A stretch of 34,312 bases of DNA from Actinomycetes bacterium. GTDB lineage: Bacteria; Actinomycetota; Acidimicrobiia; Acidimicrobiales; Acidimicrobiaceae. Shown one piece after another: positions 4,148 through 25,749 of this stretch. The notes beneath the pieces were generated by a model. It ran no database searches. It was given only the letters and a program-made list of their open reading frames with translations, and had not been told where the DNA came from. The stretch spans positions 1-34,312 of the forward strand of contig JAJYHR010000081.1 in assembly GCA_021784675.1 (NCBI GenBank). Direction: 5' to 3'. The position numbers and the translations under genes were made by a program. Each line of letters starts with the position of its first letter. The first letter of the stretch is position 1.

Positions 4148-4338
4148 CCGGCGCGGGAGCGATCGCGGTGCCGGGCTCCGCGCCCGGGTTCGCGGCAGCT
4201 TGCCCGCGCAGCCACTCCGGTGAGGGCTTGTTGCGAGTGGCAATGATTCCGTAATCTGCGGGCTACAATTGGAACCCCAGGGTCAATGGTGTCCCGCTCC
4301 CGTAACTCTATGTGATTACTAGCAAAGGATGCGGACCT

Positions 4339-7300: not shown

Positions 7301-8844
7301 ACGACATCTACTCCATCGAGGATCTGGCCCAGCTCATCTACGACCTCAAGTCGTCGAACCCGAGGGCCCGGGTGCACGTGAAGCTGGTATCCGAGGTTGG
7401 GGTAGGAACCATCGCGGTCGGTGTCGCCAAGGCTCACGCCGACGTGATCCTGATCTCGGGGGCCGACGGCGGTACCGGAGCCGCCCCGCTGACCTCGCTC
7501 AAGCACGCCGGCGGGCCGTGGGAGATCGGGCTTGCCGAGGCGAACCAGACCCTGCTCGCCAACGGGATGCGTGATCGGGTGGTGGTGCAGGTAGACGGGC
7601 AGCTGAAGACGGCTCGCGATGTGATCGTGGCTGCGCTTCTCGGAGCGGAGGAGTTCGGCTTTGCGACGGCTCCGCTGGTGGTGTCGGGGTGCATCATGAT
7701 GCGGGCCTGCCACCTGGACACATGCCCGGTGGGCATCGCCACCCAGAATCCGGAGCTGAGGGCCCGCTTCTCGGGCAAGCCCGAGTTTGTGGAGACCTTC
7801 TTCCAGTTCCTGGCCGGCGAGGTTCGCGAGTACCTGGCCCGGCTCGGTCTCCGGAGCCTGGACGAGGCGATCGGGCGGAGCGATCTGCTGGAGGTGGCGG
7901 ATGATCCAGCCGCCCGGAGCCTGGAGCTGGAGCGGGTGATCGCGCTGGTCGAGCCGTGGCCCGGTCAGGAGCGCAGGAACGTCCGGGCGCAACAGGATAT
8001 CCTCGAGGGTTCGCTCAACCGGAAGCTCATCGAGCTGGCGGAGCCCGCCCTCGAGCGGGGGCAGCCGGTCTCGATCAACCTGCCGGTGAGCAACACCGAT
8101 CGGGCGGTCGGGACCACGCTGGGTTACGAGTTGACCAGGCGCTTTGGCAGTGCCGGGCTGCCGGAGGATACGGTGAGCATCTCGCTCTCGGGTTCGGCTG
8201 GGCAGAGCTTCGGCGCTTTCCTCCCGGCGGGGATCACCATGGAGCTGGTCGGGGATTCAAACGATTACGTAGCCAAGGGCCTCTCCGGCGGCCGGATCTT
8301 CATCCGCCCTCACGCCACCGCCGCCTTCACACCGGAGGAGGCGATAATCATCGGCAATGTCGCCCTGTACGGGGCGACGCGGGGTGAGCTCTACGTCCGT
8401 GGCGTAGCCGGCGAGAGGTTCGCCGTCAGAAACTCCGGGGCGAGTGCCGTGGTCGAAGGAGTTGGCGACCACGGGTGCGAGTACATGACCGGAGGCACCG
8501 TCGTGGTGCTCGGGCGCATCGGCAGGAACTTCGCGGCCGGCATGTCCGGCGGGACTGCCTTCCTCTACAATCCCGCGCCGGAGTTGCTTGCCAAGGTGAA
8601 CCGGGAGATGGTCGATATCGAACCGGTAGGCGACAGCCAGGTCGAGACGCTTTACAGGCTGCTCAACCGGCATTGCGAGGTCACCGGCTCTGAGACCGCG
8701 GCGAGGATCCTGTCCCGCTGGGAGGAGGAGATCGAGCGATTCGTGTGCATCTTCCCGCGCGACTACAAGCGGGTGCTCGAGGTCGAGAGGGCGCGGAAGG
8801 CGGAGCTGCTCGCATCGGGAAAGGAGCTGGTGGATGCCGGCTGA
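4339..8844 (+). CDS. gltB: Glutamate synthase large subunit
   Basis: 1.5 kb-aa [17 protein letters not shown] (N-terminal Cys amidotransferase), [39 protein letters not shown] begins 4312, start codon choice uncertain. Confidence 0.97.
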
Positions 8845-10294
8845 CCCCAGAGGATTCATGAAGTTTTCGCGCCTGGTCCCGCCGAGGCGTCCGGTCGGGA
8901 GGCGGCTGGAGGACTGGCGCGAGGTGTACGAGCCTCTCGACAGCGGCGCCGTGGTGGAGCAGGCGCGGCGGTGCATGGACTGCGGGATCCCGTTCTGTCA
9001 TGGCGGCTGCCCGCTGGGGAACATCATCCCCGAGTGGAACGAGCTCTTCGGCAGTGACCGCAGGCGCGCGGCCTCCCAGCGGCTGCTGGCGACCAACAAC
9101 TTTCCCGAGTTCACCGGGCGGCTGTGCCCGGCTCCGTGCGAGTCGGCGTGCGTCCTCGGGATCAACCGGGATCCGGTGGCGATCGAGCTCATCGAGAAGA
9201 CCATCGCGGAGAGCGGCTTCGAGAACGGCTGGGATCAGCCGCTACCCCCGACCGTGCTCACCGGCTACCGCGTGGCGATCGTGGGATCGGGTCCGGCCGG
9301 GCTTGCCGCAGCCCAGCAGCTTACCCGGTCTGGGCACGCCGTGACCGTCTTCGAGCGCGCCGACCGTCCGGGCGGCCTTCTCAGATACGGCATCCCCGAG
9401 TTCAAGCTTGAGAAGTGGGTTCTCGATCGCCGGCTAGCTCAGATGGAGGAGGAGGGCACCACCTTCGTAGTCGGTGCCGAGATCGGGCGCGATGCCACCC
9501 TCGAGGAGCTGAGGGGCAGGTTCGATGCTGTAGTCCTCGCTCTGGGCTCGACCATCCCCCGCGATCTTCCGGTGCCGGGCCGCGAGTCGGAAGGGATCCT
9601 GGCCGCGATGGACTACCTCCCCGGCGCGAACCGGGCGGTCTTCGGAGCACCGCCCGCTGGCATGGTCACCGCGGAGAACCGGCGCGTGGTGATCCTCGGC
9701 GGCGGTGATACCGGAGCCGACTGCCTGGGTACGGCGCTCCGTCAGGGGGCGGCCAGCGTGGTCCAGCTGGAGCTCCTCCCGCAGCCCCCGCTGGAGCGGC
9801 CCGCTTCGCAGCCGTGGCCGACCTACCCGATGCTGTTCAGGACCTCCTCCGCGCACGAGGAGGGGGGAGAGCGCCGGTACGCCCGGCTAACGGTCGGGTT
9901 CGAGGCCGACGATGCCGGCTGGGTGAGAGCGTTGAGGACGGTTGGGGTAGCCATGGAGGGTGGCCAACCGGTGCAGATCCCGGGCACGGAGGAGGAGATC
10001 GAGGGCGATCTGGTCCTGCTTGCCATGGGTTTCATCTGCCCCGAGCTCGACCGGATCGATCCTGCAGGGCGGCTGGAGCGGACGCCGGCCGGCACGATCG
10101 CGGTCGACTCCTCCTGGCAGACCGGCATTCCCGGGGTCTTCGCCGCCGGAGACGCCAGGAGGGGCCAGTCGCTGATCGTGTGGGCGATAGCCGAGGGGCG
10201 CTCGGTGGCGAGGGCGGTCGATAGCTACCTCTGCAAGGAGACCGAGCTTCCGGCGCCTATCGATACTTCGGCGAGGCCGCTTGCGGTGGGTTGA
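8834..10294 (+). CDS. gltD: Glutamate synthase small subunit
   Basis: [66 protein letters not shown]; overlaps gltB stop by 11 nt. Confidence 0.96.
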
Positions 10295-11511: not shown

Positions 11512-12417
11512 GTGACGGAGCAGGGATGGGTGGCGCGGACCCACGGCATTGCGGCGGGAATCCGGCGAAGGGTTCTTGAGCACGTACTTGCCGAGGGTGA
11601 GGGGTATCTGTCGCAGGCTTGCTCGTCCGCGGAGATCCTGGCGCTGCTGTACGCGCGGATCCTGATGCTTGGGGCCCCGGAGCCGTCCAGATGGGCCGAG
11701 ACGTTCCCGGGCGTTCCCGGGCGTGGTGGAGCCCCTGCCGGGCTGGGAAGGTGGGTTCACGGTGCCGCGGACCCGCGGTTGGACCGGTTGGTGTTCTCAC
11801 CGGCGCACTACGCGCTGCCGCTCTATGCCGCGCTGATCGAGGTTGGGCGGTTACCCGAGAGAGCCTTACGAAGCTTCAATCGCGACGGCTCCACGCTTGA
11901 CATGATCGGAGCCGAGCACTCCCCAGGGTTCGAAGTCACGACCGGTTCGCTTGGTCAAGGGCTGAGCCAGGCGGCGGGAATCGCCACGGCGCGAAAGACC
12001 CGGGGAGAGTCCGGAAGAGTCTGGGTGTTCCTTTCCGATGGCGAGTTCCAGGAGGGGCAGACCTGGGAAGCGCTGGCTAGCGCGTCCTTTTACAACCTGG
12101 GAAACCTGCGTGTTGTGGTAGATGCCAACGGCCAGCAGTGTGACGGGCGGATCTCCGGCGTGCTCGGAATCGAACCCCTCGGTGAGCGGGTCCGGGCGTT
12201 CGGCGCGTATGCCCGGGAGGTCGACGGGCACGACGTCGTCGCCTTGGAGGAGGCGTTGTCTGGTCCGGCCGAGGGTCCGCTTGTCGTCATCGCGAGGACG
12301 GATCCAACGAGGGGACTTCCGGCTCTCAGTAAGCGGAAGATGCTGCATACGGTCCGGCTGGCGAGTGGCGAGGATCGGCGTCCCTACGAGATCGCGTACC
12401 AGGAGATGCTGGGGTGA
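11512..12417 (+). CDS. Transketolase-like, N-terminal (TPP-binding) subunit
   Basis: GAEHSPGFEVTTGSLGQGLSQAAGIA; SDGEFQEGQTWEALASASFYNLGNLRVVVDANGQQCDG; likely GTG start 11512. Confidence 0.9.
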   Translation: MTEQGWVARTHGIAAGIRRRVLEHVLAEGEGYLSQACSSAEILALLYARILMLGAPEPSRWAETFPGVPGRGGAPAGLGRWVHGAADPRLDRLVFSPAHYALPLYAALIEVGRLPERALRSFNRDGSTLDMIGAEHSPGFEVTTGSLGQGLSQAAGIATARKTRGESGRVWVFLSDGEFQEGQTWEALASASFYNLGNLRVVVDANGQQCDGRISGVLGIEPLGERVRAFGAYAREVDGHDVVALEEALSGPAEGPLVVIARTDPTRGLPALSKRKMLHTVRLASGEDRRPYEIAYQEMLG

Positions 12418-13442
12418 GTTTCGAAGTGGTGTCACGACCCCACGTGGAGAGCTTCATCGCATGGGCAAAGGACAAGCCCGAGGTGGTAGTGCTTACGGCC
12501 GACCTTACCAACTCTTGCGAAGTTGGACTCTGGCGGGACACCTATCCCGACAGGTTCTTCTCGCTGGGGATGGCCGAGCAGAATCTCTTGAGCTTCGCCG
12601 GCGGGCTCGCCAGGGAGGGGTATACACCGTTCGTCCACACCTTTTCGGTCTTCCTATACCGCAGGGCCTACGACCAGCTGGCGATGTCGATCGCTTATCC
12701 CAACCTCCGTGTCCGCCTAGTCGGGTTCCTTCCCGGCCTGACAACGCCGGGGGGTGCCACCCACCAGGCGATAGAAGATATCGCCATCATGCGGGCGACG
12801 CCGAACATGACCGTGCTGGAGGTCGGGGACGCGACCGACGTGGAGACGGTCCTCGATGTCGCCCAGTCCGTACCCGGTCCGGTTTACCTGCGCATGCTGC
12901 GCGGTGACGTACCCCGGCTCTTTCCTGCGAGTGATCCCCTCGAGTTCGACAGGGCTCGGGTGCTGAGCGACGGCGATGACGTGACGATCTTCAGCGCGGG
13001 CATCGAAACCGAGCACGCCATGGTTGTGGCGCGCGCGCTTGCCGAGTCGGGCATCGGCGTTCGCCACCTGCACATCTCGACGCACAAACCGTTTGGTGAC
13101 CCGCAGATCCTCTCCAGCGCCGCGCGGGCTCGAGTGGGCGTGGTGACGGTGGAGAACCACACAGTCGTCGGGGGTCTCGGCTCCGCGGTTGCGGAGGTGA
13201 TGGCGGAAGGGGCGGCCGGAAAGCGGCTCGTCCGGGTCGGCATTGGCGATACCTACGCGCACGGAGGGAGCCGGCAGTACCTCCTGGCCGAGTACGGGCT
13301 GGATGCCAGCGGAATCCTCCGGGCGGTCGAATCCTTGCTGGGGTCCCCTACCGGGATCGTCCCCAGCGACCTCGACCGCCTCCGCATGGACCTCGGCTTC
13401 GGCGCGGCCAGCAGGCCGGTGAACGCGGAGGACTCGCTGTGA
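12414..13442 (+). CDS. Transketolase-like, C-terminal (pyrimidine-binding) subunit
   Basis: VVLTADLTNSCEVGLWRDTYPDRFFSLGMAEQNLLSFAGGLAREGYTPFVHTFSVF; GTGA overlap with the preceding gene. Confidence 0.9.
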   Translation: MSFEVVSRPHVESFIAWAKDKPEVVVLTADLTNSCEVGLWRDTYPDRFFSLGMAEQNLLSFAGGLAREGYTPFVHTFSVFLYRRAYDQLAMSIAYPNLRVRLVGFLPGLTTPGGATHQAIEDIAIMRATPNMTVLEVGDATDVETVLDVAQSVPGPVYLRMLRGDVPRLFPASDPLEFDRARVLSDGDDVTIFSAGIETEHAMVVARALAESGIGVRHLHISTHKPFGDPQILSSAARARVGVVTVENHTVVGGLGSAVAEVMAEGAAGKRLVRVGIGDTYAHGGSRQYLLAEYGLDASGILRAVESLLGSPTGIVPSDLDRLRMDLGFGAASRPVNAEDSL

Positions 13443-14587
13443 TCGACTGGAACTGCCGCGTCGAGACGTCGGGGGTCCGGTTCGCGGCCCGATACCAGAT
13501 TTTCGGCGACCCTGCCACCGTTCCCGAGCGGGCCGGCGCTCTGGCGGTCGAGGAGACTATCGAGTTTCCCGCCGACCTGGTGCGGGGAACGGATGTCGGG
13601 AAGCACGTCGTGGGCAGGGTCGAGGCGATCGAGCCGGTGGGGCCGACGGCGACGTCGGCCACGGTCAGCTACGCGGTGGAGGTCGCCGGTGGCGAGCTGC
13701 CTCAGCTGCTTAACGTTCTCTTCGGGAACTGCTCCCTTCTTCCAGGCGTGCGCCTCACGGGCGTCGAGCTGCCTGCCGACCTCCTGGCGTCCTTCGGAGG
13801 GCCAAGATTTGGTCGGCATGGCCTCCGGGACCTCGTAAGCGTGCCAGATCGGCCGCTGCTGGCTACCGCGCTCAAGCCGATGGGCCTCGATGTCAAGAGT
13901 CTCGCGGAGATGTCCGGCACCCTGGTGCGAGCGGGGGTCGATATCATCAAGGACGACCATGGGCTGGCGAACCAGCCGTTCGCGCCCTTCCAGGCTCGCG
14001 TGGAGGCATGCGCGACGGCGGTCACCAAGGCCTGCGAAGCAACGGGGCTCCGGGTCCTTTACTTTCCGTGCGTGAATGCACCGGCGGATCAGCTTTTCGA
14101 ACGGGCACGATTTGCGAAGGAGGCGGGCGCCTCAGGCCTGCTAGTCATACCGGGATTTAGCGGGTTTGACGCCATGAGGGCTCTGGCTGTGGACGATGCG
14201 CTGGGCTTGCCGGTGATGGCGCACCCAGCCTTCCTTGGCTCGTTCGCCACCCATCCTGAAGGTGGAGTTGCCCACGGAGTCCTGTTCGCGACGCTCATGC
14301 GCCTCGCGGGAGCCGACATGTCGATCTTCCCGGGCCATGGCGGCCGGTTCGCGTTTACCAGGGAGGAGTGCGAATCGATCGCAGTCGAGGCCGCATCGCC
14401 GATGGGCGGACTCCGCGAGCTGCTGCCGGTCGTGGGTGGCGGGATGGCGGTCGAGCGCGTGGGCGAGCTCGTTGAGCTTTACGGCCGCGAGTTCGCCCTC
14501 CTGATCGGTGGCGGCCTTCACCGGGGCGATCTGGCCATCAACGTCAAGCGGATCAGAGACGAGGTTTCTCATGTCATTGAGAGATAG
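13439..14587 (+). CDS. RuBisCO-like protein (form IV, RLP)
   Basis: LLATALKPMGLDVKSLAEM, RAGVDIIKDDHGLANQPFAPF, MAHPAFLGSF, LPVVGGGM align to RuBisCO large-chain active-site blocks; GTGA overlap with transketolase C subunit. Confidence 0.9.
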   Translation: MIDWNCRVETSGVRFAARYQIFGDPATVPERAGALAVEETIEFPADLVRGTDVGKHVVGRVEAIEPVGPTATSATVSYAVEVAGGELPQLLNVLFGNCSLLPGVRLTGVELPADLLASFGGPRFGRHGLRDLVSVPDRPLLATALKPMGLDVKSLAEMSGTLVRAGVDIIKDDHGLANQPFAPFQARVEACATAVTKACEATGLRVLYFPCVNAPADQLFERARFAKEAGASGLLVIPGFSGFDAMRALAVDDALGLPVMAHPAFLGSFATHPEGGVAHGVLFATLMRLAGADMSIFPGHGGRFAFTREECESIAVEAASPMGGLRELLPVVGGGMAVERVGELVELYGREFALLIGGGLHRGDLAINVKRIRDEVSHVIER

Positions 14588-14732
14588 GTGCAGGGGAATG
14601 AGGGCGTAACAGAGAGGCAAGGAATCCGGGGAAACTTGCCCGAGTTTCGAGGGCAATGATCCGGTGAACACGGGAAATGGGGGAGTAACGGTTATGGATA
14701 GGCGTATCCGGATACAAAGGGGGAAGGTCGTA

Positions 14733-15779
14733 ATGAAGTCTAGAGTGTGGGCAACTTCGGTCGCCGCGGCGGCCTTGCTGGCAGCCTGCGGGTCAACGTC
14801 CGCTTCAAGCAAGTCACAGAGCACGGTTCAGAAGCTGCACAAGCTTACCGTTGGGGTCGTCATGTACGACTCGACAGGACCGTTCTTCAGCACGTGGGCG
14901 CGGGGTGTGAAGGCGGAGGCTTCCGCGCTCGGGATATCGCTCGACTTCGCGGGTGCCAATGCCGATGAGGCGACGCAATCGCTGTACGTGCGCGATGACA
15001 TAGGTCGGGTGCAGGGAATGCTCGTTGGCTGGGGGTACAACCCGACCCTCAACCCGGTCATAGACCAGGCCATCAGCCACGGGGTCAAGGTTGCGTCCTA
15101 CGGGATCCAGCCGAGCAACCCGGGTGTCTACCAGGTGCACCAGAAGGACGCTGTGATCGCGCAGCTCTCCATCGGTCAGCTGAACGACTGGATACATGGC
15201 AGCGGGGACGTGATCTATATCAACGTTGGTGGTATCTACCCGCTCGATGTCAGGAACGGGGTCTGGCAGGCGTACCTGGCGTCCCATCCCAGCGTCCACC
15301 AGGTGGCCCATGTCGGCGAGTTGAATGCGACCACGGTGACCACGGTGGCCTCGGAGGTCGAGGCGGCCCTGCTCGCGAACCCGAACGTCAAGGCCATCTT
15401 CGCCCCCTACGACGCGTTCGCTCAGGGTGCGACGATCGCGGTCAACCACCTCGGGAGGCAGAGCACGGTGAAGATCTTCGGGGCGGACACCTCGACGACC
15501 GATATCGGCATCATGACGGCCGCGAACAGCCCGTGGATCGCAAGTGGCGCCAGCTACGCGTACACCGACGGCGCGGTAGCCCTTCGGACGGTGGTGATGG
15601 CGGCCATGGGGAGCAAGATAAGCCACCATGTCTACATACCGCCGGTACTGATCACTAGCTCGTTCCTGCTCTCCCATCACGTGACCGCCTCCTCGCAACT
15701 GCTGAAGTACTTCCCGACTCTGACGACGAGCAACCTTGCGTGCGCACCGTACATGAAGTCGGAACACGCGTGCCTGTGA
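14733..15779 (+). CDS. Sugar ABC transporter substrate-binding lipoprotein (RbsB/periplasmic-binding type 1)
   Basis: Signal peptide with lipobox LLAACGS; KLTVGVVMYDSTGPFFSTWARGVKAEASALGI; VKAIFAPYDAFAQGA; ATG 14733 with ggggaagg RBS. Confidence 0.9.
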   Translation: MKSRVWATSVAAAALLAACGSTSASSKSQSTVQKLHKLTVGVVMYDSTGPFFSTWARGVKAEASALGISLDFAGANADEATQSLYVRDDIGRVQGMLVGWGYNPTLNPVIDQAISHGVKVASYGIQPSNPGVYQVHQKDAVIAQLSIGQLNDWIHGSGDVIYINVGGIYPLDVRNGVWQAYLASHPSVHQVAHVGELNATTVTTVASEVEAALLANPNVKAIFAPYDAFAQGATIAVNHLGRQSTVKIFGADTSTTDIGIMTAANSPWIASGASYAYTDGAVALRTVVMAAMGSKISHHVYIPPVLITSSFLLSHHVTASSQLLKYFPTLTTSNLACAPYMKSEHACL

Positions 15780-15799
15780 CACGGGAGCACGGGAGCGTC

Positions 15800-15825
15800 G
15801 GTCCCCCGACAGCCGGCGGGGGACC
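15800..15825 (+). promoter_or_regulatory. Intercistronic GC-rich hairpin GGTCCCCCG-(8 nt)-CGGGGGACC
   Basis: Perfect 9-bp inverted repeat between SBP stop and ATPase start. Confidence 0.6.
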
Positions 15826-15847
15826 AGGGGTTCGGGTGTAGCCGGGA

Positions 15848-17443
15848 ATGGTTCACTTCGCTGGTGAGGGGATCGGCAAGATCTACGGTAGCGCAGAGGT
15901 CCTCCACGGCTGCTCGGTGGAGCTTCACGGCGGCCGCATAACCGGCCTTGTCGGGAGCAATGGAGCGGGGAAGTCGACCCTGATCCGGATCCTCTGCGGC
16001 GCCGAGCGGCCGAGTCGCGGGCGGTTGAGCTGGAACGGGAACGAGGTCAGCTTCGCGGGACCGCGGGATGCGAAGCGGCGCGGCATCGAGGTGGTCCACC
16101 AGAATGTCGCGCTTGGCTTGCTCCCGGGAAGGAGCGTTGCAGAGAACCTTATGCTTGACGCGCTGGCGGGGAAGCAGTGCCCGGTGCTGGTGAGCCGAGC
16201 GTGGTTCGAGTCCGCCGCATCCCAGATGCTGGGGAGCCATCTCTTCAGCTTCGACCCGGAGAGATCTATCGACGATCTCAGCGTGGCGGAGAGGCAAGAG
16301 GTCGTCCTGGCGCGCGCAATCGCCCAACAAGCGAGCGTGATGATCCTGGACGAGCCTACTGCCAGCTTGTCGGAGCGAGAGGCGGGCGTCCTGTTCGAAC
16401 GGCTTCGGCACCTGCGCGACCAGGGCGTGGCGGTGATGGTGGTCTCGCACAGGTTGGGCGAGGTTAGCCAGATCTGCGACAGCGTGTTCGTTCTCCGCGA
16501 CGGGGTGGTGGTGGACAGGCTCGAGGCGCGGGACGGAGCCCTGCTGGACGTGGGGCGGATGGCGATGGGAATCATCGGCGAGGCAAGGGTGAGCGCGGCT
16601 CGACTCGGGGGCGGGTTCTCCGGGTCGGACCGCACGGCACCAACTGCGGTGGAAGGCTCGACGAGGGCCGGAGAAGTGGCGCTCGAAGGTGTGGGCATTC
16701 GTCCCCACCCGCAAGGACCGGAGGTGCACATCTCCGTCCATTACGGCGAGGTTCTCGGACTTACCGGCCTGGTCGGAGCGGGAAAGACCGAGCTCCTAGA
16801 GCAGCTTGTCGGCGTTCGCCCGCTTGCTAGCGGGGAGGTATCGCATCGCGGGCAACCGCTTCAGGGCTCGGGAATCGCCGCCGCTATCGCGACAGGGATC
16901 GGGTTCGTTCCGGAGGATCGGACCCGATCGGCCATCTTTCCCGGGTGGTCGGTCAGGCGGCACCGGACGATCCCCTTCCTGAAGCGATTCTGCCGGCACG
17001 GGCTCGTACACGCGGGAAGGGAGGCGCGTGCCGGCGAGGATCTGATGGACCGTTTCGACGTGCGGGGAGGCCGCTCCGATATTGCGGTCGACTTCCTCTC
17101 CGGGGGCAACCAGCAGAAGGTGATCGTGACGCGGTGGCTTGCGGAAGGGGTCGACGTGCTGGTGCTGGACGAGCCGTTTACCGGCGTCGATATCGGCGCG
17201 CGTGGCGACATAGGGGCCCAGTTGAGGTGGTTCGCGAGGGAGCATTCGAAGGCGATACTGGTGGCATCCTCGGATCCGCGGGAGGTTGTCGAGGTTGCCG
17301 ATCGGGTGATGGTGCTGGTGGACGGGCGGGTCGCGTGGGAGGGTCCGGTTGGCGACGACACGTTGAGCAGCGTAGGGAGAGCGATCGCATCCACCGGCGA
17401 CCGCGAAGCAGGCGCTACCGGGACGGTAGAGGGGGAGTCATGA
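15848..17443 (+). CDS. Sugar ABC transporter ATP-binding protein (RbsA type, tandem ABC domains)
   Basis: Two Walker A motifs (GSNGAGKST, GLVGAGKTE), LSVAERQEV and LSGGNQQKV signatures, VMILDEPTASL and VLVLDEPFTGVD Walker B. Confidence 0.95.
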   Translation: MVHFAGEGIGKIYGSAEVLHGCSVELHGGRITGLVGSNGAGKSTLIRILCGAERPSRGRLSWNGNEVSFAGPRDAKRRGIEVVHQNVALGLLPGRSVAENLMLDALAGKQCPVLVSRAWFESAASQMLGSHLFSFDPERSIDDLSVAERQEVVLARAIAQQASVMILDEPTASLSEREAGVLFERLRHLRDQGVAVMVVSHRLGEVSQICDSVFVLRDGVVVDRLEARDGALLDVGRMAMGIIGEARVSAARLGGGFSGSDRTAPTAVEGSTRAGEVALEGVGIRPHPQGPEVHISVHYGEVLGLTGLVGAGKTELLEQLVGVRPLASGEVSHRGQPLQGSGIAAAIATGIGFVPEDRTRSAIFPGWSVRRHRTIPFLKRFCRHGLVHAGREARAGEDLMDRFDVRGGRSDIAVDFLSGGNQQKVIVTRWLAEGVDVLVLDEPFTGVDIGARGDIGAQLRWFAREHSKAILVASSDPREVVEVADRVMVLVDGRVAWEGPVGDDTLSSVGRAIASTGDREAGATGTVEGES

Positions 17444-18576
17444 ACGTGCAAACACCAGAAAGTGACACCACGTTGGAGGAACGGTCATCGATGCCGGCGG
17501 GGATCTCTCGCGAGCGGCGGCACTCCGATCGGAAGCTCATGCTTTCGCAGATGAGCTTGAAATACGGCCTTGTCAGCGTGTTTCTGGCGATGATGGTTGG
17601 ATTCTGGATGCTCTTGCCAGCCTTTGGGTCTATGAGCAATATCTGGGTCATCCTGGAGTCGATGGCGATCGTGGTTGTGGCGGCGCTAGGGGTGACTTTT
17701 TCGCTTGCGGTGGGCGGCTGGGACCTGTCGATCGGATCCAACATCAGCTTCGTCGTCATGGTCGGCGCGATCTTTCTTGTCGAGTTCAACTCGGGCGCGG
17801 TAGTCGCGCTGGTCGCTTGCCTTGCCACGGGCCTCCTGATCGGCGGTGTGAATGCGCTGCTGATTGTCAAGGGGAAGGTCCCCGACATGATCGCCACCCT
17901 TGGAACGATGTTCGTCTTCCAGGGCTTGGCGCTCGTGATCGCCGGGGGCAACAACATCGCACCCGGGATGACGCTAGCCAACGGGCGCACGGCGCCAGGG
18001 GCGATGGGGGCGGTCTTCAACTGGATCGGAAACGGGACGATCGGGCTCGGGATCCCGGGCTTGGTGGTGATCCTTGCCGCCACGGTGGTGGCCGTCTTCG
18101 TCCTTCTGGAGCTAAGCCGCTTCGGCAGGACCATGTACGCCCTCGGCATCAACCGGGAGGCTGCTCGCCTTGCCGGAGTTCCGGTGAACCGCTACCGCGC
18201 CGCAGCCTACCTGCTCTCGGGCCTCCTGGGGGGAGTGGCGGGCGTGATGCTCCTCGGGCTGCTGGGCAACGGCCAGGTTAACGCGGGGAGCCCGTACCTG
18301 CTCGAGTGCGTTGCCGCGGCGCTTATCGCCTATGCCTTCCTGGGCCTCAAGAGGCCATCGGTTCAGGGGACGGTGTTCGGAGCGCTCTTCGTGTCGGTCG
18401 TGATCAACGGGTTGACGATGTTCAACGTCCCCTACTATGCGGAGGACACGACCTATGGTCTGCTCCTCATGCTGGCGCTGATCCTGACGTTCTCGGTGGG
18501 TGGTAGGAGCCAGCCCACCGGATCGTGGCTGCTTCGAGGGAGGATTGCCAGGAGGCGGGGAGTTCCGGCGCCCTAG
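17440..18576 (+). CDS. Sugar ABC transporter permease (RbsC type)
   Basis: VGGWDLSIGSNISFVVMVGA, VKGKVPDMIATLGTMFVFQGLALV, ALGINREAARLAGVPV; ATGA overlap with ATPase. Confidence 0.93.
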   Translation: MNVQTPESDTTLEERSSMPAGISRERRHSDRKLMLSQMSLKYGLVSVFLAMMVGFWMLLPAFGSMSNIWVILESMAIVVVAALGVTFSLAVGGWDLSIGSNISFVVMVGAIFLVEFNSGAVVALVACLATGLLIGGVNALLIVKGKVPDMIATLGTMFVFQGLALVIAGGNNIAPGMTLANGRTAPGAMGAVFNWIGNGTIGLGIPGLVVILAATVVAVFVLLELSRFGRTMYALGINREAARLAGVPVNRYRAAAYLLSGLLGGVAGVMLLGLLGNGQVNAGSPYLLECVAAALIAYAFLGLKRPSVQGTVFGALFVSVVINGLTMFNVPYYAEDTTYGLLLMLALILTFSVGGRSQPTGSWLLRGRIARRRGVPAP

Positions 18577-18680
18577 GGAGCGTTGCTGCGGCAGAACGCG
18601 CGGGGAGATCAAGGCTTTCAGAGTTGGAATGAAGGCGAGCTTGAGATGGAATACGAGTAAGTAGGAGGGTGTGGCAGAGG

Positions 18681-19721
18681 ATGCGAGAAGAGCTCCGACC
18701 AGTTTCGTGGACCGGGAAGGCGATCCGCCTGATCGATCAGACGGCGCTTCCAGGAGAGATGACTTACCTGGAGATTAGCGATATCGACAGCCTTGTTGAA
18801 GCGATCCAGCGGCTCAGCGTACGTGGCGCACCGGCGCTTGGAGCGGTGGGCGCGCTCGGTGTTGCGGTCGCCATGCAGCAGCGTGAACGCGAGGGCTGGG
18901 ACGTAGAGGCGTTTTCCAGCGCCCTGGACCGGCTGCGCAACGCCCGGCCGACCGCACGGAACCTGGCTTGGGGGGTCGACGCGGTAGCGGGGATGGTCGA
19001 GCTTGGCGAGGCCGCGGTGATCGGCGAGGCATTGAAGCTCATAGCAGAGGACGAGGCGAACAATCACGAGATCGGCCGGCTCGGTGCGGATTGGATACTC
19101 TCCCGAGTTCGGAACCGGCCGGTCAACGTGCTTACCCACTGCAACACGGGGGCGCTGGCGACGACTGGCTGGGGAACCGCCCTCGGGATCGTCAGGGAGC
19201 TCCACCGGCGAGGGGCGCTCGGGGTAGTGTACGTGGACGAGACCAGACCCCTGCTGCAGGGTGCTCGGTTGACGGCCTTCGAACTTGGCCGGGAGGGGAT
19301 CCCTCACTTCGTGCAGGCCGATGCGGCCGCGGCAAGCACGATCCTCTCGGGCAAGGCGGATGTGGCCATCATTGGCGCGGACCGCATCGCCGCCAACGGT
19401 GACACCGCAAACAAGATCGGCTCGCTCGCGGTTGCCCTTGCGGCGCGCGAAGGCCAGATCCCCTTCGTAGTCGCGGCCCCGGAGTCCACCGTCGACGTGG
19501 CCACGCCGAGTGGAGATTTCATCCCAATCGAATACCGCTCGGAGGCCGAGGTGCTCTCTTGGGCAGGCGTACCGGTTGCGCCCGAGGGCAGCCGGGGCTA
19601 CAATCCCGCCTTCGACGTGACGCCGGGGAGGCTGGTGAGTGCCCTCGTAACCGAGGAGCGTGTTCTCGAGGTCGCCACCGGCGAGGTGCCGGCGCCTGCG
19701 CAGGAGGTAACCGCGCCATGA
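18681..19721 (+). CDS. mtnA: MtnA-family aldose-1-phosphate isomerase (S-methyl-5-thioribose-1-phosphate isomerase-like)
   Basis: VRGAPALGAVGALGVAVAM, HCNTGALATTGWGTALGIVREL, DETRPLLQGARLTAFEL, IIGADRIAANGDTANKIG, YNPAFDVTPGRLVSALVTE; track gives GTG 18669, ATG 18681 equally possible. Confidence 0.93.
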   Translation: MREELRPVSWTGKAIRLIDQTALPGEMTYLEISDIDSLVEAIQRLSVRGAPALGAVGALGVAVAMQQREREGWDVEAFSSALDRLRNARPTARNLAWGVDAVAGMVELGEAAVIGEALKLIAEDEANNHEIGRLGADWILSRVRNRPVNVLTHCNTGALATTGWGTALGIVRELHRRGALGVVYVDETRPLLQGARLTAFELGREGIPHFVQADAAAASTILSGKADVAIIGADRIAANGDTANKIGSLAVALAAREGQIPFVVAAPESTVDVATPSGDFIPIEYRSEAEVLSWAGVPVAPEGSRGYNPAFDVTPGRLVSALVTEERVLEVATGEVPAPAQEVTAP

Positions 19722-21721
19722 CCGGTGCATCCGCAGACGGCTTTGACCTTGACGTGCTGGCTGGCTGGACCCGCCGACTGGCCTCCCAGCCATCCTGGAC
19801 GGTCGCCGGGGGCGGGAACACGTCGATGAAGGGCGTTGCCCGGGACGCTCTCGGTCGCGAGCGCCAGGTCCTGTGGGTGAAGGGCTCGGGGATCGACATG
19901 GGACAGGCAGTCGCTGCCGACTTCGCAACGCTTGATCTGGAGCGACTCCGGGTACAGGGAGCGACGGAGGTGCCAGACGATGCCGCGGCTAGGGTTGTGG
20001 TCGAAGGAGCGGTCATCCAGCCGTCTGGCCCGCGGCCGTCCGTCGAGAGCCTGATGCACGCCTTGATGCCCGCCGGGTTCGTATTCCACGTTCACGCCGA
20101 TGCTATCTGCGCGATTGCGAATCATGCGGACGGGGGCAGGCGGGTCACCGAGATTCTCGGCGAGCGCTTTGCTTGGCTCGGCTGGGTGCAACCCGGCCTG
20201 GATCTGGCGAGACAGGTGCGGAGCCTAGCCAGCTACGACGGAGTCGCGCTAGCCCACCATGGGCTGGTCGCATGGGATGACGATCCGGAACGCTGCTTCC
20301 GGAGGATCGAGACGGCGATCGGGCGCGCGCAGCGGCATCTAGCCGCAGCCGGTGCCGCGGCGGCGATCCCGCTGGAGGCGACGGAGCTTACCGCGGTCGA
20401 GGAGGAGCGGTTCCTCCTTGCGGTCCGGGGCCGGCTGTGCGAGCGCGGCCACCGGGTGGTGGTGGTGGATCGCCGCCTTCGCGAGATCTCGGATCGCGCG
20501 GACCTTGGCGATATCGTTCGCGCGGGCGTCTCCAGCGCGGACCACGTGCTCTGGATCGGGCCGTGGTCGTGTGCGGTAGCCGATCCCCGCGACATCGGGT
20601 CGGCACTGGCTGCCATCGACGCCTACGGGGAGCGATTCGCCAGCTTCGCGGGACCGGGGGAGGATGAGCTGGAGAAGCGGGGCGAGCTGCTCGGAGAGCG
20701 GACTCCCCGCGTCCTGCTCGCGCCTGGGATCGGCGCCATTGTGACGGGGTCGACCGAGCGCGAGGCCCGACAAAGGGCCGAAGTCGCCCTGCACACGCAC
20801 GCGACCGCGGGTGCGGCAATCGCGGCATTCGGCAAGGTCGATGGCCTGGATGACGCCACGCTCTTCGAGTGGTCGAAGTTTCCCCTTGAACTCGCCAAAC
20901 TGAAGGACAGGCCAGCGCCCGGGAGGCTGGGAGGCCGAATATTCATCGTCACCGGGGCGGCCTCGGGAATCGGTCGCACGGTCGCGCGCGAGCTTGCCAG
21001 CCAGGGTGCGAGCGTCGTGGCAGCCGACCTCAACGGGGAGCTGCTCGAGTCGCTCGCGCGCGAGTTCGAGGAGGCTGGCCTCCCTGAACTCGCGCCGGTC
21101 ACGGGTGACCTCGCGGACGAGGGGGTGGTGTCGGGAGTGGTGGCTACCGCCGTGCAGCGGTTCGGAGGTCTTGACGGCGCCGTAGTGAATGCGGGGATTG
21201 GAGTGAGCGGGAGGTTGGAGGAGCTTGGCGTCCGCGAGTGGCGCAGAGCGCTTGACGTCAACCTGACCTCGGCATTTCTTCTGACCCGAGGGGCGATGAG
21301 GGCGCTGCGAGCGCAGGGCATCGGGGGATCGCTGGTCTACATTGCCAGCAAGAACGCGTTCGGACCTGGGGCAGGGTTCGGCGGTTACTCGGTCTCGAAG
21401 GCGGGCATGGTGCAGCTGATGCGGATCGCGGCGCTGGAGGGAGGCGAGGCGGGTATTCGCGCGAACGCCATAAATCCCGATGCCGTCTTCGACAACTCGC
21501 GTTTCTGGTCGGGTTCGCTGGCAAGCGAGAGGGCGGCCGCGCACGGCGTTGCGGAGGGCGGCCTCGCCGAGTTCTATGCGGAGAGGAACCTGCTGCACCG
21601 GCGGGTGAGAACCAGCGACGTCGCCGCCGCGGTTGTCTTCTTGCTGTCGGACGAGTCGTCCCGTACCACCGGGAGCGTGATCCCCGTAGACGGTGGCGTG
21701 GCGTCCGCGTTCCCGCGGTAA
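19718..21721 (+). CDS. Bifunctional class II aldolase / short-chain dehydrogenase (RhaD-SDR fusion type)
   Basis: N-terminal aldolase: GGGNTSMK, VKGSGIDMG, PSVESLMHALMPAGFVFHVHAD, ALAHHGLVAW; C-terminal SDR: IVTGAASGIGRTVA, VYIAS, YSVSK; ATGA overlap with mtnA. Confidence 0.93.
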   Translation: MTGASADGFDLDVLAGWTRRLASQPSWTVAGGGNTSMKGVARDALGRERQVLWVKGSGIDMGQAVAADFATLDLERLRVQGATEVPDDAAARVVVEGAVIQPSGPRPSVESLMHALMPAGFVFHVHADAICAIANHADGGRRVTEILGERFAWLGWVQPGLDLARQVRSLASYDGVALAHHGLVAWDDDPERCFRRIETAIGRAQRHLAAAGAAAAIPLEATELTAVEEERFLLAVRGRLCERGHRVVVVDRRLREISDRADLGDIVRAGVSSADHVLWIGPWSCAVADPRDIGSALAAIDAYGERFASFAGPGEDELEKRGELLGERTPRVLLAPGIGAIVTGSTEREARQRAEVALHTHATAGAAIAAFGKVDGLDDATLFEWSKFPLELAKLKDRPAPGRLGGRIFIVTGAASGIGRTVARELASQGASVVAADLNGELLESLAREFEEAGLPELAPVTGDLADEGVVSGVVATAVQRFGGLDGAVVNAGIGVSGRLEELGVREWRRALDVNLTSAFLLTRGAMRALRAQGIGGSLVYIASKNAFGPGAGFGGYSVSKAGMVQLMRIAALEGGEAGIRANAINPDAVFDNSRFWSGSLASERAAAHGVAEGGLAEFYAERNLLHRRVRTSDVAAAVVFLLSDESSRTTGSVIPVDGGVASAFPR

Positions 21722-21753
21722 CGGTTGTTGATCGGCTTCGGAACGGAGGTGAC

Positions 21754-22995
21754 ATGAAGGACACGGAATCGGCGTCCGGCTACCGGCGGCTCACGCTCGA
21801 GACCGTTGGGGCCTACGTGGGTGCGACGGGACCCCTGAGGGGAATCATCGACGGGGATAGCCTCGCGGAGGCGGCTGAAATCGGCGACGGAAACCTCAAT
21901 CTGGTGTTCATACTCAAGGACCGTGCCCGGCGGGGGCTGGTCCTCAAGCAGGCCTTGCCCTACGTCCGGCTGGTCGGGCCCTCCTGGCCGCTTCCCGTGG
22001 ACCGCGCGCAGCGGGAGGCCGAGGCCTTGAGGACCTATGCCGGGTTCGCTCCCGACCTGGTGCCGAAGCTCTATCACTTCGACCCGCGGCTGTTCGTGGT
22101 TGCTCTGGAGGACCTATCGGATCATCAGGTTTGGCGGAGCGCCCTCAACGCCGGGGAGCGGCACGAGGGAGTTGCGTCGGATCTCGGGCTGTTCGTGGCC
22201 CGCCTTGCCTTCCACACCTCGGCATTCGGGCTCGGCGCGGAGGCCGAGCGTGCGGCGCTCGCGCGTTCGATCAACTCCGAGCTCCGGGTCATCACCGAGG
22301 ACCTGGTCTTCTCGGAGCCCTATGTGGGCTCACCCCGAAACTCGGTGCTGCGGGAGAACGTCAAGGACGTGCAGGCGCTTGCCAACGACGCCGCCATGGT
22401 CCGGGAGGTTGGGTGGTTGAAGTGGCAGTTCATGACCGAGGCCGAGGCTCTGATCCACGGGGACCTGCACACCGGATCGGTCATGGTTCGCGAGGCCGGC
22501 GATGGGCGGGAACGCTCGACCAAGGTCATCGATCCGGAGTTCGCCTTCTACGGGCCCGTAGGGTTCGACATTGGCGCCCTGTGGGCTAACTACATCCTTG
22601 CCGCGGCACGAGCTGTTGCGCTCGGCGAGGGGGAGAGGGCGGCTTGGTGCCTCGGATTGATCGGCGAGACCTGGGACTCCTTTTACGGCGAGTTCGAGGC
22701 CCTCTGGCCCGGGGTTCGCGATGATCGGGTTTTCACGACGGCTACGCTGCGCCAGTACGTGGACAAGGTGAAGGTCGACAGCTGGGGCTTCGCGGCGACC
22801 AAGGTCGCGCGGAGAATAGTCGGGCTGGCAAAGGTCTCCGACATCGAGACCCTGGGCGAGCCCGTTCGCGTTGGCGCTGCTCGCGGGGCGCTCCGCGCGG
22901 CACGCACGATGGCCGTAGCGCGGCACCGGTCCCCCGGGATCGAAGGCATGGTCGACGAGATCGGCAGCCTGCTTGTCGAGAGTGCCACATGCTGA
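21754..22995 (+). CDS. mtnK: S-methyl-5-thioribose kinase family (sugar C1 kinase)
   Basis: IGDGNLNLVFI, LVLKQALPYVR, ALIHGDLHTGSVMV, VIDPEFAFYGPVGFDIGALWANYILA are MtnK hallmarks. Confidence 0.93.
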   Translation: MKDTESASGYRRLTLETVGAYVGATGPLRGIIDGDSLAEAAEIGDGNLNLVFILKDRARRGLVLKQALPYVRLVGPSWPLPVDRAQREAEALRTYAGFAPDLVPKLYHFDPRLFVVALEDLSDHQVWRSALNAGERHEGVASDLGLFVARLAFHTSAFGLGAEAERAALARSINSELRVITEDLVFSEPYVGSPRNSVLRENVKDVQALANDAAMVREVGWLKWQFMTEAEALIHGDLHTGSVMVREAGDGRERSTKVIDPEFAFYGPVGFDIGALWANYILAAARAVALGEGERAAWCLGLIGETWDSFYGEFEALWPGVRDDRVFTTATLRQYVDKVKVDSWGFAATKVARRIVGLAKVSDIETLGEPVRVGAARGALRAARTMAVARHRSPGIEGMVDEIGSLLVESATC

Positions 22996-23049
22996 ACGGG
23001 GGTGGTGATTCGATGGTGGGCCACCGGTGGCCGGACTTGGAGGTGGCGG

Positions 23050-23502
23050 ATGCTCAGGGGACTTGATCCGCTGATGAGCCCCGCGCTCCTGTACCATCTG
23101 GCATCGATGGGCCACGGGGATGAGCTGGCCGTCGTTGATCGGAACTTCCCGGCATCGGCGACGGCCAGCCGGCTGGTACGGCTGCCCTCCGCGGGCCTGG
23201 TAGCCGCGGTCAAGGCGATCTTGACCGTCTTCCCGCTGGACCAGTGGGGGAAGACGCCGTTCTCCGCGATGGCGCGGGGCGGGAGCCCGGCGACCTTTGC
23301 GCCCTCGGTAACGGCAGCCTTCGAGATGTCGCTGGAGGCCGCGGGGCGATCGTTCGAGATCGAGGCGCTAGAGGCTCAGAGTTTTTACACTAGGGCGCGA
23401 TCGTCGTTTGCGGTGTTGGCTACCGGAGAGGAGCAGCTTTACGGGTGCATCCTGCTTCGCAAGGGGGTCGTACTCCCAGAGGAGACACATGACGTCCAGT
23501 GA
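23050..23502 (+). CDS. RbsD/FucU-family sugar mutarotase
   Basis: MLRGLDPLMSPALLYHLASMGHGDELAVVDRNFPA (LL..LA.MGHGDE...D.NFP). Confidence 0.88.
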   Translation: MLRGLDPLMSPALLYHLASMGHGDELAVVDRNFPASATASRLVRLPSAGLVAAVKAILTVFPLDQWGKTPFSAMARGGSPATFAPSVTAAFEMSLEAAGRSFEIEALEAQSFYTRARSSFAVLATGEEQLYGCILLRKGVVLPEETHDVQ

Positions 23503-23734
23503 ACACCATGCCGTCGGGGCAGCGGGTAGCCTCGAAGTCGGATTCGATGCGCCATTGCGCGGCCGCTCGTCGGTCGGCGGTTTGGAGCCGGTCGTTTCAA
23601 GGTACCAGCTGCGCGTTGAAGGTGGGTACCGCCGGCTGCGCCTGGCGGTCGAAAGCGAAACCGTGCCGAGGACGGCTCCGGCACTTGCGGGAGGCTGGGC
23701 CGGTCTAGGAGGCGAAGATGAGTCGGAATTTTGA
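23489..23734 (+). CDS. Possible 81-aa small protein, unknown
   Basis: ATG with good upstream RBS (agaggaga), overlaps RbsD stop and GntR start; no recognised motif. Confidence 0.3.
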   Translation: MTSSEHHAVGAAGSLEVGFDAPLRGRSSVGGLEPVVSRYQLRVEGGYRRLRLAVESETVPRTAPALAGGWAGLGGEDESEF

Positions 23735-24476
23735 TGGGGCGGCGGAGCCTGGCCTGCGCCCGGTGAGGCTGCGCCCGCTTCGGGTAGTGGTGCGGGAGGA
23801 GCTTCGCCGGCGCATCCTGGCGGGGGAGTGGGCAGTCGGGGAGCGCCTTCCTACCGAGGACGAGCTGTGCCGGGAGTTCGCGGTCTCCCGAGTGACGGTA
23901 CGTTCCGCCATCCAGGCGCTGGCGGCCCAAGGGCTGGTCGACATCCGCCACGGATCGGGCACCTACGTGGCGACTTTTGGCGGGCAGCTTCGGGCCGGAT
24001 TGCAAGAGCTTCGATCGATGACCGAGGTTATCCGGGAGCTTGGCCACCACGGCGGCTCTGTGCTTGACTGGAAGGAGACGCGGTATCCTACGGAGGCAGA
24101 GGCCAACCTGCTTGGCATCGCCAGCGACAGCCATGTCGTCTCGATGGAGCGGACATGGATGGCGGACGGCGAGGTGGTTGGCTACTCCTTCGATGCCATT
24201 CCCGCCGACATGCTCCCTCCCGCGCTGACGGAGAGCCTCGGGAGTGAGAGCACATTCACCACGTTCAGGCGCTTTGGGATAGAGCCGGCACGAGCGATGG
24301 CCGAGCTTCATGCGGTGGACGGGGTGCCGCCGGCTCACAACTCCAACGCGGTTGAGGGGTCGTTGTATCTCCTGCTTGACCAGGTTCATTACGATCGGGG
24401 CGCCCGCGCGATCATGTATAGCCGCACCTACTTCGTCGAGGGCCGGTTCAGTTTCGTCATCTTGCGGACGGTGTGA
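23718..24476 (+). CDS. GntR-family transcriptional regulator, HutC/UTRA type
   Basis: [62 protein letters not shown] wHTH; C-terminal UTRA-like domain ending [10 protein letters not shown]. Confidence 0.93.
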
Positions 24477-24529
24477 GAAGGAGTGCGGGTTGCGGGACCA
24501 TGAGCTTGCAGGGAAGAGGAGGTAGCGAA

Positions 24530-25429
24530 ATGCCAGAGGTTGACGTCGTTGAGGAGAAGGAGTTTTTCGTCCATATACCCCCTCCGGATCAGGGGTTTTT
24601 CTTGAAGGGATCGGCTGGGTACGACTGGGGGATGAAGAACCGGCTGGCAAGGATCTTCAACCCGGCCACAGGCAGGACGGTCATGCTGGCTTTCGATCAT
24701 GGTTACTTCCAGGGGCCGACGTCCGGGCTCGAGCGGATCGACCTCTCGATCGTTCCCATCGCCCCGCGCGCCGACGCGCTGATGTTGACGCGCGGGGTCC
24801 TACGGTCCGTGATACCGCCGTCGCATCGGGGTGGACTGGTCATCCGGGCCAGCGGCGGCCCCAGCATCCTTCGCGAGCTCTCCAACGAGCGATTGGCTCT
24901 GGACATGGAGGATGCCGCCCGGATGAACGCCAGTGCGGTAGCGGTGCAGGTCTTTGTGGGTGGGGAGTTCGAGACGCAGTCGGTGGAGAACCTTACCCGT
25001 CTCGTGGATGCGGGGTATCGCTTCGGGATCCCCGTCCTCGGCGTGACCGCGGTGGGTCGGGGTTTGGACCGTGATAGCCGCTACCTGGGATTGGCGACAC
25101 GCATGTGTGCCGAGCTTGGGGCGCAGATCGTGAAGACGTACCACTGCGACGAGGGATTCGAACGCGTGGTTGCGGGTTGCCCGGTGCCGGTGGTGGTGGC
25201 AGGGGGGAAGAAAATGCCAGAGCAGGCGGCTCTCGCCATGGCTCACCGTGCCATCCAGGAGGGGGCGGCTGGCGTCGACATGGGCCGGAATGTGTTTCAG
25301 TCGCCGGCACCGGTCGCAATGCTGGAGGCTCTCGCGAAGGTAGTCCATGAGGATATGGAGCCTGGCGATGCCTACAAGCTATACAAGGACCTGGAGAAGT
25401 CCCACGGGAGTGTCGGGGGGTACCGGTAG
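24530..25429 (+). CDS. LsrF-family class I aldolase/thiolase (3-hydroxy-5-phosphonooxypentane-2,4-dione thiolase-like)
   Basis: [93 protein letters not shown] agaggaggt. Confidence 0.9.
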
Positions 25430-25606
25430 ACCGGTCCGTCTCGCTCACCTGGCGGAACAGAGGCCGCCGCGCTGCTCTAGCCCGAAGTTACACCCCCTCG
25501 GCGAGCTTTCCTACGCCCCGCCAGGGAAAATAAGTAAGCCTGGGCGAGATCTACTGGCTACATGAGCCGGAGGGGCACCGGTACGCCCAGGAGTTCGAAC
25601 ACCGTT

Positions 25607-25648
25607 CGCCATCGCCATCGCCATCGCCATCGCCATCGCCATCGCCAT
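25607..25648. repeat. Hexanucleotide tandem repeat (CGCCAT)x7
   Basis: Seven uninterrupted copies of cgccat. Confidence 0.97.
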
Positions 25649-25749
25649 TGGCGTTGCGCTCTCTGGCTTCCTTGGCCTTCGCCCCTGGTGAGGTCGCGGC
25701 GGGTGTGACCGGGTTGTAGCGCACCGGTCGCGCCTCGCCAGCAAAGGCC

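Follow-up and report, generated by a model that had tools for sequence, protein, structure and literature searches.

Described systems and organization of the operon

Radical-SAM and other enzymes that use S-adenosylmethionine (SAM) leave behind toxic 5'-deoxyadenosine and 5'-methylthioadenosine (MTA), the disposal of which in most anaerobes and in the Actinomycetota is, to our knowledge, only partly known. As has been reported previously, 5-deoxyribose can be removed through the dihydroxyacetone phosphate (DHAP) shunt (DrdK-DrdI-DrdA; mtnK-mtnA-ald2), a kinase-isomerase-aldolase pathway published with its transporters and mutarotase homologue (PMC6079011, PMC10986504), and in the MTA-isoprenoid shunt of Rhodospirillum rubrum and Rhodopseudomonas palustris a RuBisCO-like protein (RLP) is paired with a cupin (PMC5893883). 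Here we describe an operon at positions 11512–25429 of a 34,312-nucleotide stretch of DNA (hereafter the window; contig JAJYHR010000081.1 of assembly GCA_021784675.1, Acidimicrobiaceae) that, on balance, probably imports and degrades 5-deoxy-5-X-riboses by oxidation and CoA-dependent thiolysis (branch A), by an RLP and a transketolase (branch B) and possibly by aldol cleavage (branch C).

With the DHAP shunt the operon shares the MtnK kinase, the MtnA isomerase, a class II aldolase, a transporter, a mutarotase homologue and the substrate class, but its FucA-type aldolase is fused to a short-chain dehydrogenase/reductase (SDR), unlike DrdA, and it adds the RLP, a split transketolase (TK) with an altered active site and an LsrF-type thiolase, which is predicted to yield acetyl-CoA instead of acetaldehyde. 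MtnA and an RLP of the DeepYkr type are also found in the MTA-isoprenoid shunt, whereas the operon has no cupin methylsulfurylase, the altered split TK standing in its stead, and its RLP falls in a separate subclade. LsrF is shared with the degradation of autoinducer 2 (AI-2; LsrG/LsrF), as would be, if our reading is right, the intermediate 3-hydroxy-5-phosphonooxypentane-2,4-dione (P-HPD) and the products acetyl-CoA and DHAP; in the operon, however, P-HPD would arise from a 5-deoxypentose via MtnK, MtnA and a dehydrogenase, not from phospho-4,5-dihydroxy-2,3-pentanedione, and LsrK, LsrG and LsrB are not encoded. Split TKs (PDB 6yaj/6yak, and those of sulfoglycolysis and apiose pathways) have the same two-subunit build and the same thiamine pyrophosphate (TPP), Mg and catalytic residues, while the TK of the operon differs in H26 (Tyr), H100 (Met/Leu) and D469 (Gly) and has an RLP as its usual partner.

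Open reading frame translations and domain searches identified 12 intact genes, all on the + strand:

11512..12417, +, TK_N, TPP-binding half of the altered split TK (Pfam Transketolase_N; nearest PDB 6yak, a split TK; H26 to Tyr, H100 to Met)
12414..13442, +, TK_C, pyrimidine-binding/C-terminal half of the same TK (Pfam Transket_pyr and Transketolase_C; PDB 6yaj; D469 to Gly; E411, S385 and R520 kept)
13439..14587, +, RLP of the DeepYkr type, probable 5-X-ribulose-1-phosphate 1,3-isomerase (Pfam RuBisCO_large; nearest PDB 3qfw; tree)
14733..15779, +, substrate-binding protein (SBP), sugar-binding lipoprotein of an ATP-binding cassette (ABC) importer (Peripla_BP_4; lipobox LLAAC)
15848..17443, +, ATPase of the ABC importer, with two ABC domains (ABC_tran, twice)
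17440..18576, +, permease of the ABC importer, ribose/arabinose type (BPD_transp_2; best NCBIfam matches to ribose and arabinose permeases, below cut-off)
18669..19721, +, MtnA, (5-X-ribose)-1-phosphate isomerase (TIGR00512; PDB 1t9k and others, Cys and Asp motifs kept)
19718..21721, +, class II aldolase-SDR fusion (Aldolase_II and adh_short; HVH...HH metal motif and Y-x3-K in the translation)
21754..22995, +, MtnK, 5-methylthioribose/5-deoxyribose 1-kinase (TIGR01767; PDB 2pyw, 2olc)
about 23050..23502, +, FucU/RbsD-type sugar mutarotase (Pfam RbsD_FucU; best NCBIfam match L-fucose mutarotase, 90 bits, below the cut-off of 141)
23718..24476, +, GntR-UTRA regulator (Pfam GntR and UTRA)
24473 (GTG) or 24530 (ATG)..25429, +, LsrF-type CoA-dependent thiolase (NF006081; PDB 3glc; Lys203)

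A preliminary description of the operon had counted 11 co-directional genes; the shared direction holds and the number is 12. The genes it named are all present and intact, with agreeing Pfam and NCBIfam domains and folds evident from their sequences, and the operon does end in the GntR regulator and LsrF. The overlaps it reported are 4 bases long at four junctions (TK_N/TK_C, TK_C/RLP, ABC ATPase/permease and MtnA/aldolase-SDR), the widest spacings separate the RLP from the SBP gene (146 bp) and FucU from GntR (about 216 bp), and the 12 genes likely form one transcript. Curated NCBIfam cut-offs were exceeded by MtnK (392 bits, cut-off 275), MtnA (385 bits, cut-off 279) and LsrF (455 bits, cut-off 297), and both MtnK and MtnA had PDB matches with conserved catalytic motifs. 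The RLP, both TK halves and the aldolase-SDR gave superfamily matches and reached no specific NCBIfam equivalog cut-off; the last fell below every NCBIfam cut-off for rhamnulose-1-phosphate aldolases and SDRs, with the HxH...H metal motif of its aldolase domain intact in the translation.

Conservation of the RLP and its transketolase partner

The nearest PDB entry to the RLP of the window is the R. palustris DeepYkr protein 3qfw (242 bits; MtnW about 143 bits), which we take to be the RLP1 of the R. palustris study. This DeepYkr protein has a published activity as 5-methylthioribulose-1-phosphate 1,3-isomerase (PMC5893883), and RLP1 is the nearest known protein in the RLP tree, with the RLP of the window in a separate subclade. 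Two other assignments were rejected: the MtnW enolase, which scored below cut-off and forms the outgroup in the tree, and the OiaX/apionate type (94 bits against a cut-off of 700).

The genome scan returned 545+ relatives of the RLP, and neighborhoods were compared at the 80 best-scoring loci, a sample biased to the RLP subclade of the window, with flanks limited by contig ends, many genomes in draft and neighboring genes called by homology weighting. A TK half was adjacent at 58 loci and a cupin at three, ten had neither and nine lay too near a contig end, such that the TK_N-TK_C-RLP module is kept in 58 of about 71 informative loci across many phyla, including Chloroflexi, Firmicutes, Spirochaetes, Planctomycetes, Proteobacteria, Elusimicrobia and Actinomycetota. 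MtnA (18 loci) and MtnK (12 loci) also occur among the neighbors, as do purine-nucleoside or methylthioinosine (MTI)/MTA phosphorylases and/or MTA/5'-deoxyadenosine-deaminase-like enzymes (L012, L031, L059 and L095), and a ribulose-phosphate epimerase (RPE) follows the RLP in L036. The module adjoins MtnK, MtnA, ABC and aldolase-SDR genes in Rhizobiaceae and Chloroflexi, and MtnK and MtnA in Firmicutes. Plasmids of Rhizobiaceae and Mariluticola share a set of regulator, aldolase-SDR, SBP, permease, ATPase, mtnK, mtnA, TK_N, TK_C and RLP; the annotated parts of these loci contain no LsrF. The cupin and the TK look like alternative partners of the RLP, because two of the cupin-linked loci (L083 and L100, both Firmicutes; a cupin also lies beside the RLP in L016) are nested among TK-linked RLPs in the tree.

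MtnA was detected in 48 of the 50 RLP-carrying genomes, nearly all of which have the TK module (47 above cut-off), whereas the acireductone dioxygenase MtnD, one of the genes whose absence the preliminary description had proposed to check, was clear in only one (Alicyclobacillus) of 51 TK-RLP genomes including that of the window, a second match being marginal. Flux through MtnA in TK-RLP genomes would thus rarely proceed via the oxygen-dependent pathway.

Among the RLP-linked TK sequences (62 TK_N and 67 TK_C, E. coli TktA numbering; column H461, ambiguous by one residue, was left out), H26 is replaced by Tyr in all 62 TK_N, H100 by Met or Leu in 61 of them and D469 by Gly in all 67 TK_C, while D155, N185, E411, F434, F437, H473 and R520 are invariant and S385 is kept in 65/67. 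The signatures GYLSQACSxAE, IGAEHSPG and GFLPGxxTPGGxTHQ recur. In TKs, H100 touches the C1 hydroxyl of the donor, and Dxs, the donor of which lacks this hydroxyl, has Phe at the equivalent position. D469 has been engineered toward non-hydroxylated aldehydes (PMC3657141). These residues suggest that the altered split TK is still able to act as a TPP enzyme; its donor is probably one with no hydroxyl at C1, which would also hold for the RLP product 1-X-xylulose-5-phosphate (X = H or SCH3). Phosphoketolase expels water, and Xsc sulfite, from the TPP adduct; by analogy, the C2 unit of the altered TK may lose methanethiol, or else may be released as X-acetaldehyde or transferred.

Two plasmid loci carry further genes at the module. 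In Ponticoccus alexandrii (L012:8779-11055) a BisC-type S/N-oxide reductase lies between MtnA and TK_N, which suggests salvage of the sulfoxide of MTA or 5-methylthioribose (MTR), and in Vibrio nigripulchritudo (L014:10000-15635) TK_N-TK_C-RLP is accompanied by an FGGY kinase and lacks a nearby MtnA, which suggests another entry sugar.

LsrF and its dehydrogenase partners

The LsrF of the window matches E. coli LsrF (PDB 3glc) at 374 bits, far above archaeal aldolases, its NCBIfam thiolase score is far above the aldolase/ADH-synthase models and Lys203 is kept in all 62 aligned rows. In the LsrF tree it groups with L241, another MtnA/ABC/aldolase-SDR cluster. LsrF occurs together with pathway genes in L025/L155, L156, L029/L157, L036, L042, L069, L073 and L078, and in other phyla it is found with MtnA/MtnK and/or a dehydrogenase and no RLP or TK beside it (L160, L162, L235, L241, L249 and L253), as in L160 (MtnK, aldolase-SDR, ABC, LsrF, RPE) and L162 (LsrF, SBP, MtnA, MtnK, ABC).

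An LsrF survey that sampled three phyla evenly (LsrF-positive: 25/301 Chloroflexota, 34/347 Actinomycetota and 6/349 Bacillota) yielded 45 further neighborhoods. A Tdh-like alcohol dehydrogenase (ADH), defined as a zinc ADH with at least 40% identity to the ADH of L036 and adjoining LsrF or within about 4 kb of it, was present at 28 of these loci and an aldolase-SDR at seven, so that one or the other dehydrogenase is linked to LsrF in 35/45; about seven loci had AI-2-type genes. The smallest clusters have the gene orders PNP-AhcY-ADH-LsrF-MtnA (L253; PNP, purine-nucleoside phosphorylase) and AhcY-LsrF-ADH-MtnA (L249); L235 has LsrF-ADH, with an MTI phosphorylase (MTIP) and MtnA nearby. No aldolase was detected at these three loci, and the minimal PNP-AhcY-ADH-LsrF-MtnA clusters contain no aldolase, RLP or AI-2 genes. 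From gene content, AhcY and PNP point to SAM-derived nucleoside by-products.

The co-occurrence check proposed in the preliminary description bore out an association of LsrF with MtnA: within the Actinomycetota sampled, MtnA is found in 27/34 LsrF-positive and 142/313 LsrF-negative genomes (Fisher p = 1.2e-4, ignoring phylogeny), and in 27/30 (p = 1.2e-6, likewise ignoring phylogeny) once the four AI-2-type genomes, all without MtnA, are set aside. Additionally, an RPE-like gene, reminiscent of LsrE, repeatedly accompanies LsrF (L155:8277-9482, L156, L160, L221-L223, L242 and L163), and does so in a true lsr operon as well.

Proposed pathway and alternatives

The substrates are very likely 5-deoxy-5-X-riboses, where X is H in 5-deoxyribose and SCH3 in MTR. 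The preliminary description had named 5-deoxyribose, which fits, but MTR is as likely. The ABC importer would take up these sugars, by-products of SAM enzymes, and the FucU/RbsD protein would supply the right anomer; with a high degree of confidence, MtnK would form the 1-phosphate and MtnA convert it to 5-X-ribulose-1-phosphate, the branch point.

In branch A, a reasonably probable route, a dehydrogenase (in the window, the SDR half of the fusion) would oxidize the C4 hydroxyl, giving P-HPD for X = H, which LsrF and CoA would split into acetyl-CoA and DHAP; with X = SCH3 the product would be methylthioacetyl-CoA. Oxidation of 5-deoxyribulose-1-phosphate, or of 1-deoxyxylulose-5-phosphate (DXP), at C4 yields P-HPD, a known LsrF substrate, and the chemistry of the preliminary description, which starts from 5-deoxyribulose-1-phosphate, was judged sound. 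Threonine dehydrogenase and 2-amino-3-ketobutyrate CoA ligase (KBL) likewise oxidize the carbinol next to a methyl group before CoA releases acetyl-CoA, and the ADH beside LsrF is Tdh-like, but the substrate of branch A would be a sugar phosphate, not an amino acid, and LsrF is unrelated to KBL. In branch B, the RLP would shift the carbonyl from C2 to C4, a 1,3-isomerization that is likely, giving 1-X-(xylulose/ribulose)-5-phosphate (DXP if X = H). The altered TK would then cleave this product to glyceraldehyde-3-phosphate and a TPP-bound X-CH2-C(OH) unit, released or transferred, although its exact reaction is assigned tentatively. In the possible branch C, the aldolase half would split 5-X-ribulose-1-phosphate into DHAP and X-acetaldehyde.

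The MtnK-MtnA-oxidation-LsrF route of the preliminary description gains from the genome context, with LsrF beside MtnA and dehydrogenases in other phyla, from their co-occurrence and from Lys203, but it had overlooked the RLP/TK branch and the aldolase cleavage. A separate branch is needed because the RLP and the split TK form a conserved module with an altered active site, and cleavage as in the DHAP shunt is equally available because the aldolase metal motif is kept. Several observations weigh against the three-branch scheme. LsrF, which recurs beside MtnA and dehydrogenases, was found in 14 of the 50 TK-RLP genomes and not in the other 36, placing it outside the most conserved core, and its absence from most of these genomes, together with its not being seen in the Rhizobiaceae loci, makes branches A and B separable. 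At many TK-RLP loci the module has neither MtnK nor an importer next to it, so its substrate may differ from that of the operon. It also seems redundant for a single operon to run three branches from the same intermediate. SDRs of the aldolase-SDR fusions in the rhamnose pathway oxidize the aldehyde freed by the aldolase, known members acting on lactaldehyde; by this analogy, the SDR half may oxidize the aldolase product and not 5-X-ribulose-1-phosphate, which makes the SDR oxidation the weakest step in the window.

Such coupling of cleavage to aldehyde oxidation is what an elaborated DHAP shunt would entail, with MtnK, MtnA and the aldolase half producing DHAP and (methylthio)acetaldehyde, the SDR half oxidizing or reducing the aldehyde and LsrF serving as an aldolase or acting on something unrelated. 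The kinase, isomerase and class II aldolase with transporters and mutarotase homologue match the published 5-deoxyribose disposal cluster (PMC6079011), E. coli grows by this route (PMC10986504) and the metal motif is intact; the explanation is nevertheless rather improbable, as it leaves the RLP and TK unexplained, and LsrF, which in L235, L249 and L253 sits with MtnA and an ADH but no detected aldolase, scores far better as a thiolase than with the aldolase/ADH-synthase models. An operon serving mainly oxygen-independent methionine salvage, in which the RLP would form 1-methylthioxylulose-5-phosphate, the TK would yield glyceraldehyde-3-phosphate, acetyl-phosphate or acetate and CH3SH, and LsrF would be an add-on, is a less remote but still minor contender. 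It draws on the replacement of the methanethiol-releasing cupin by the TK beside the same RLP type, the frequency of MtnA and rarity of MtnD noted above, the hydrophobic C1 pocket of the TK (H100 to Met/Leu), the MTI/MTA phosphorylases near the module and the S-oxide reductase of L012, whereas LsrF in the window favors X = H and one cupin locus, L044, is weak and on the opposite strand.

An ordinary ribose pathway (ribose-1-phosphate to ribulose-1-phosphate to xylulose-5-phosphate, with a normal transketolase) would suit the FucU/RbsD protein, the ribose-type importer and the RPE beside the RLP in L036, but is very unlikely given the loss of the C1-hydroxyl ligand and of D469 from nearly all RLP-linked TKs and given MtnK and the deaminase and MTIP partners, which indicate 5'-deoxy-nucleosides. 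More improbable still is that the operon takes up and degrades AI-2 as lsr operons do: the LsrF is a strong match that groups with E. coli LsrF, but LsrR, like LsrK, LsrG and LsrB, is not encoded in the operon, and the four AI-2-type LsrF genomes of the survey lack MtnA. Within the three-branch scheme, it is conceivable but doubtful that the split TK is a new TPP enzyme converting 1-methylthioxylulose-5-phosphate to glyceraldehyde-3-phosphate, an acetyl unit and CH3SH expelled from the TPP adduct, alongside a second undescribed route from 5-deoxyribose through P-HPD to acetyl-CoA and DHAP via LsrF.

In the open-access papers searched (subscription papers and preprints were outside the scope), no paper was found that joins LsrF to MtnA/MtnK or an RLP to a transketolase, and both routes are provisionally novel. 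The two conserved modules offer testable answers to by-product disposal, the dehydrogenase with LsrF giving acetyl-CoA directly without acetaldehyde, and the RLP with the altered split TK operating in MtnA genomes nearly all without the oxygen-dependent MtnD. If this is correct, LsrF would gain a role outside quorum sensing, many unannotated RLPs would gain a partner and a probable reaction and, should the TK expel the thiol, oxygen-independent methionine salvage would extend across many bacterial phyla.

Host genome and surroundings

The contig that forms the window (C50) belongs to a 1.95 Mb genome, 86% complete, in which, in contrast to universal methionine salvage, no MtnD (PF03079) was found. 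The genome encodes an MTA/S-adenosylhomocysteine nucleosidase, a possible internal source of MTR and 5-deoxyribose besides the importer. No sign of vertical inheritance within the family was seen: a close RLP is missing from the sampled relatives and the catabolic core is nearest to the Chloroflexi loci L025/L026. A second, stronger RuBisCO large-chain homologue (G000:C87:4445-5368, 455 bits, 461-aa open frame) occurs in the same genome, where a true RuBisCO and an RLP may coexist. Glutamate synthase large and small subunits are encoded at 4312-10294, ~1.2 kb upstream of the operon, and a short (CATCGC)n tandem run lies just 3' of it at 25605-25650.

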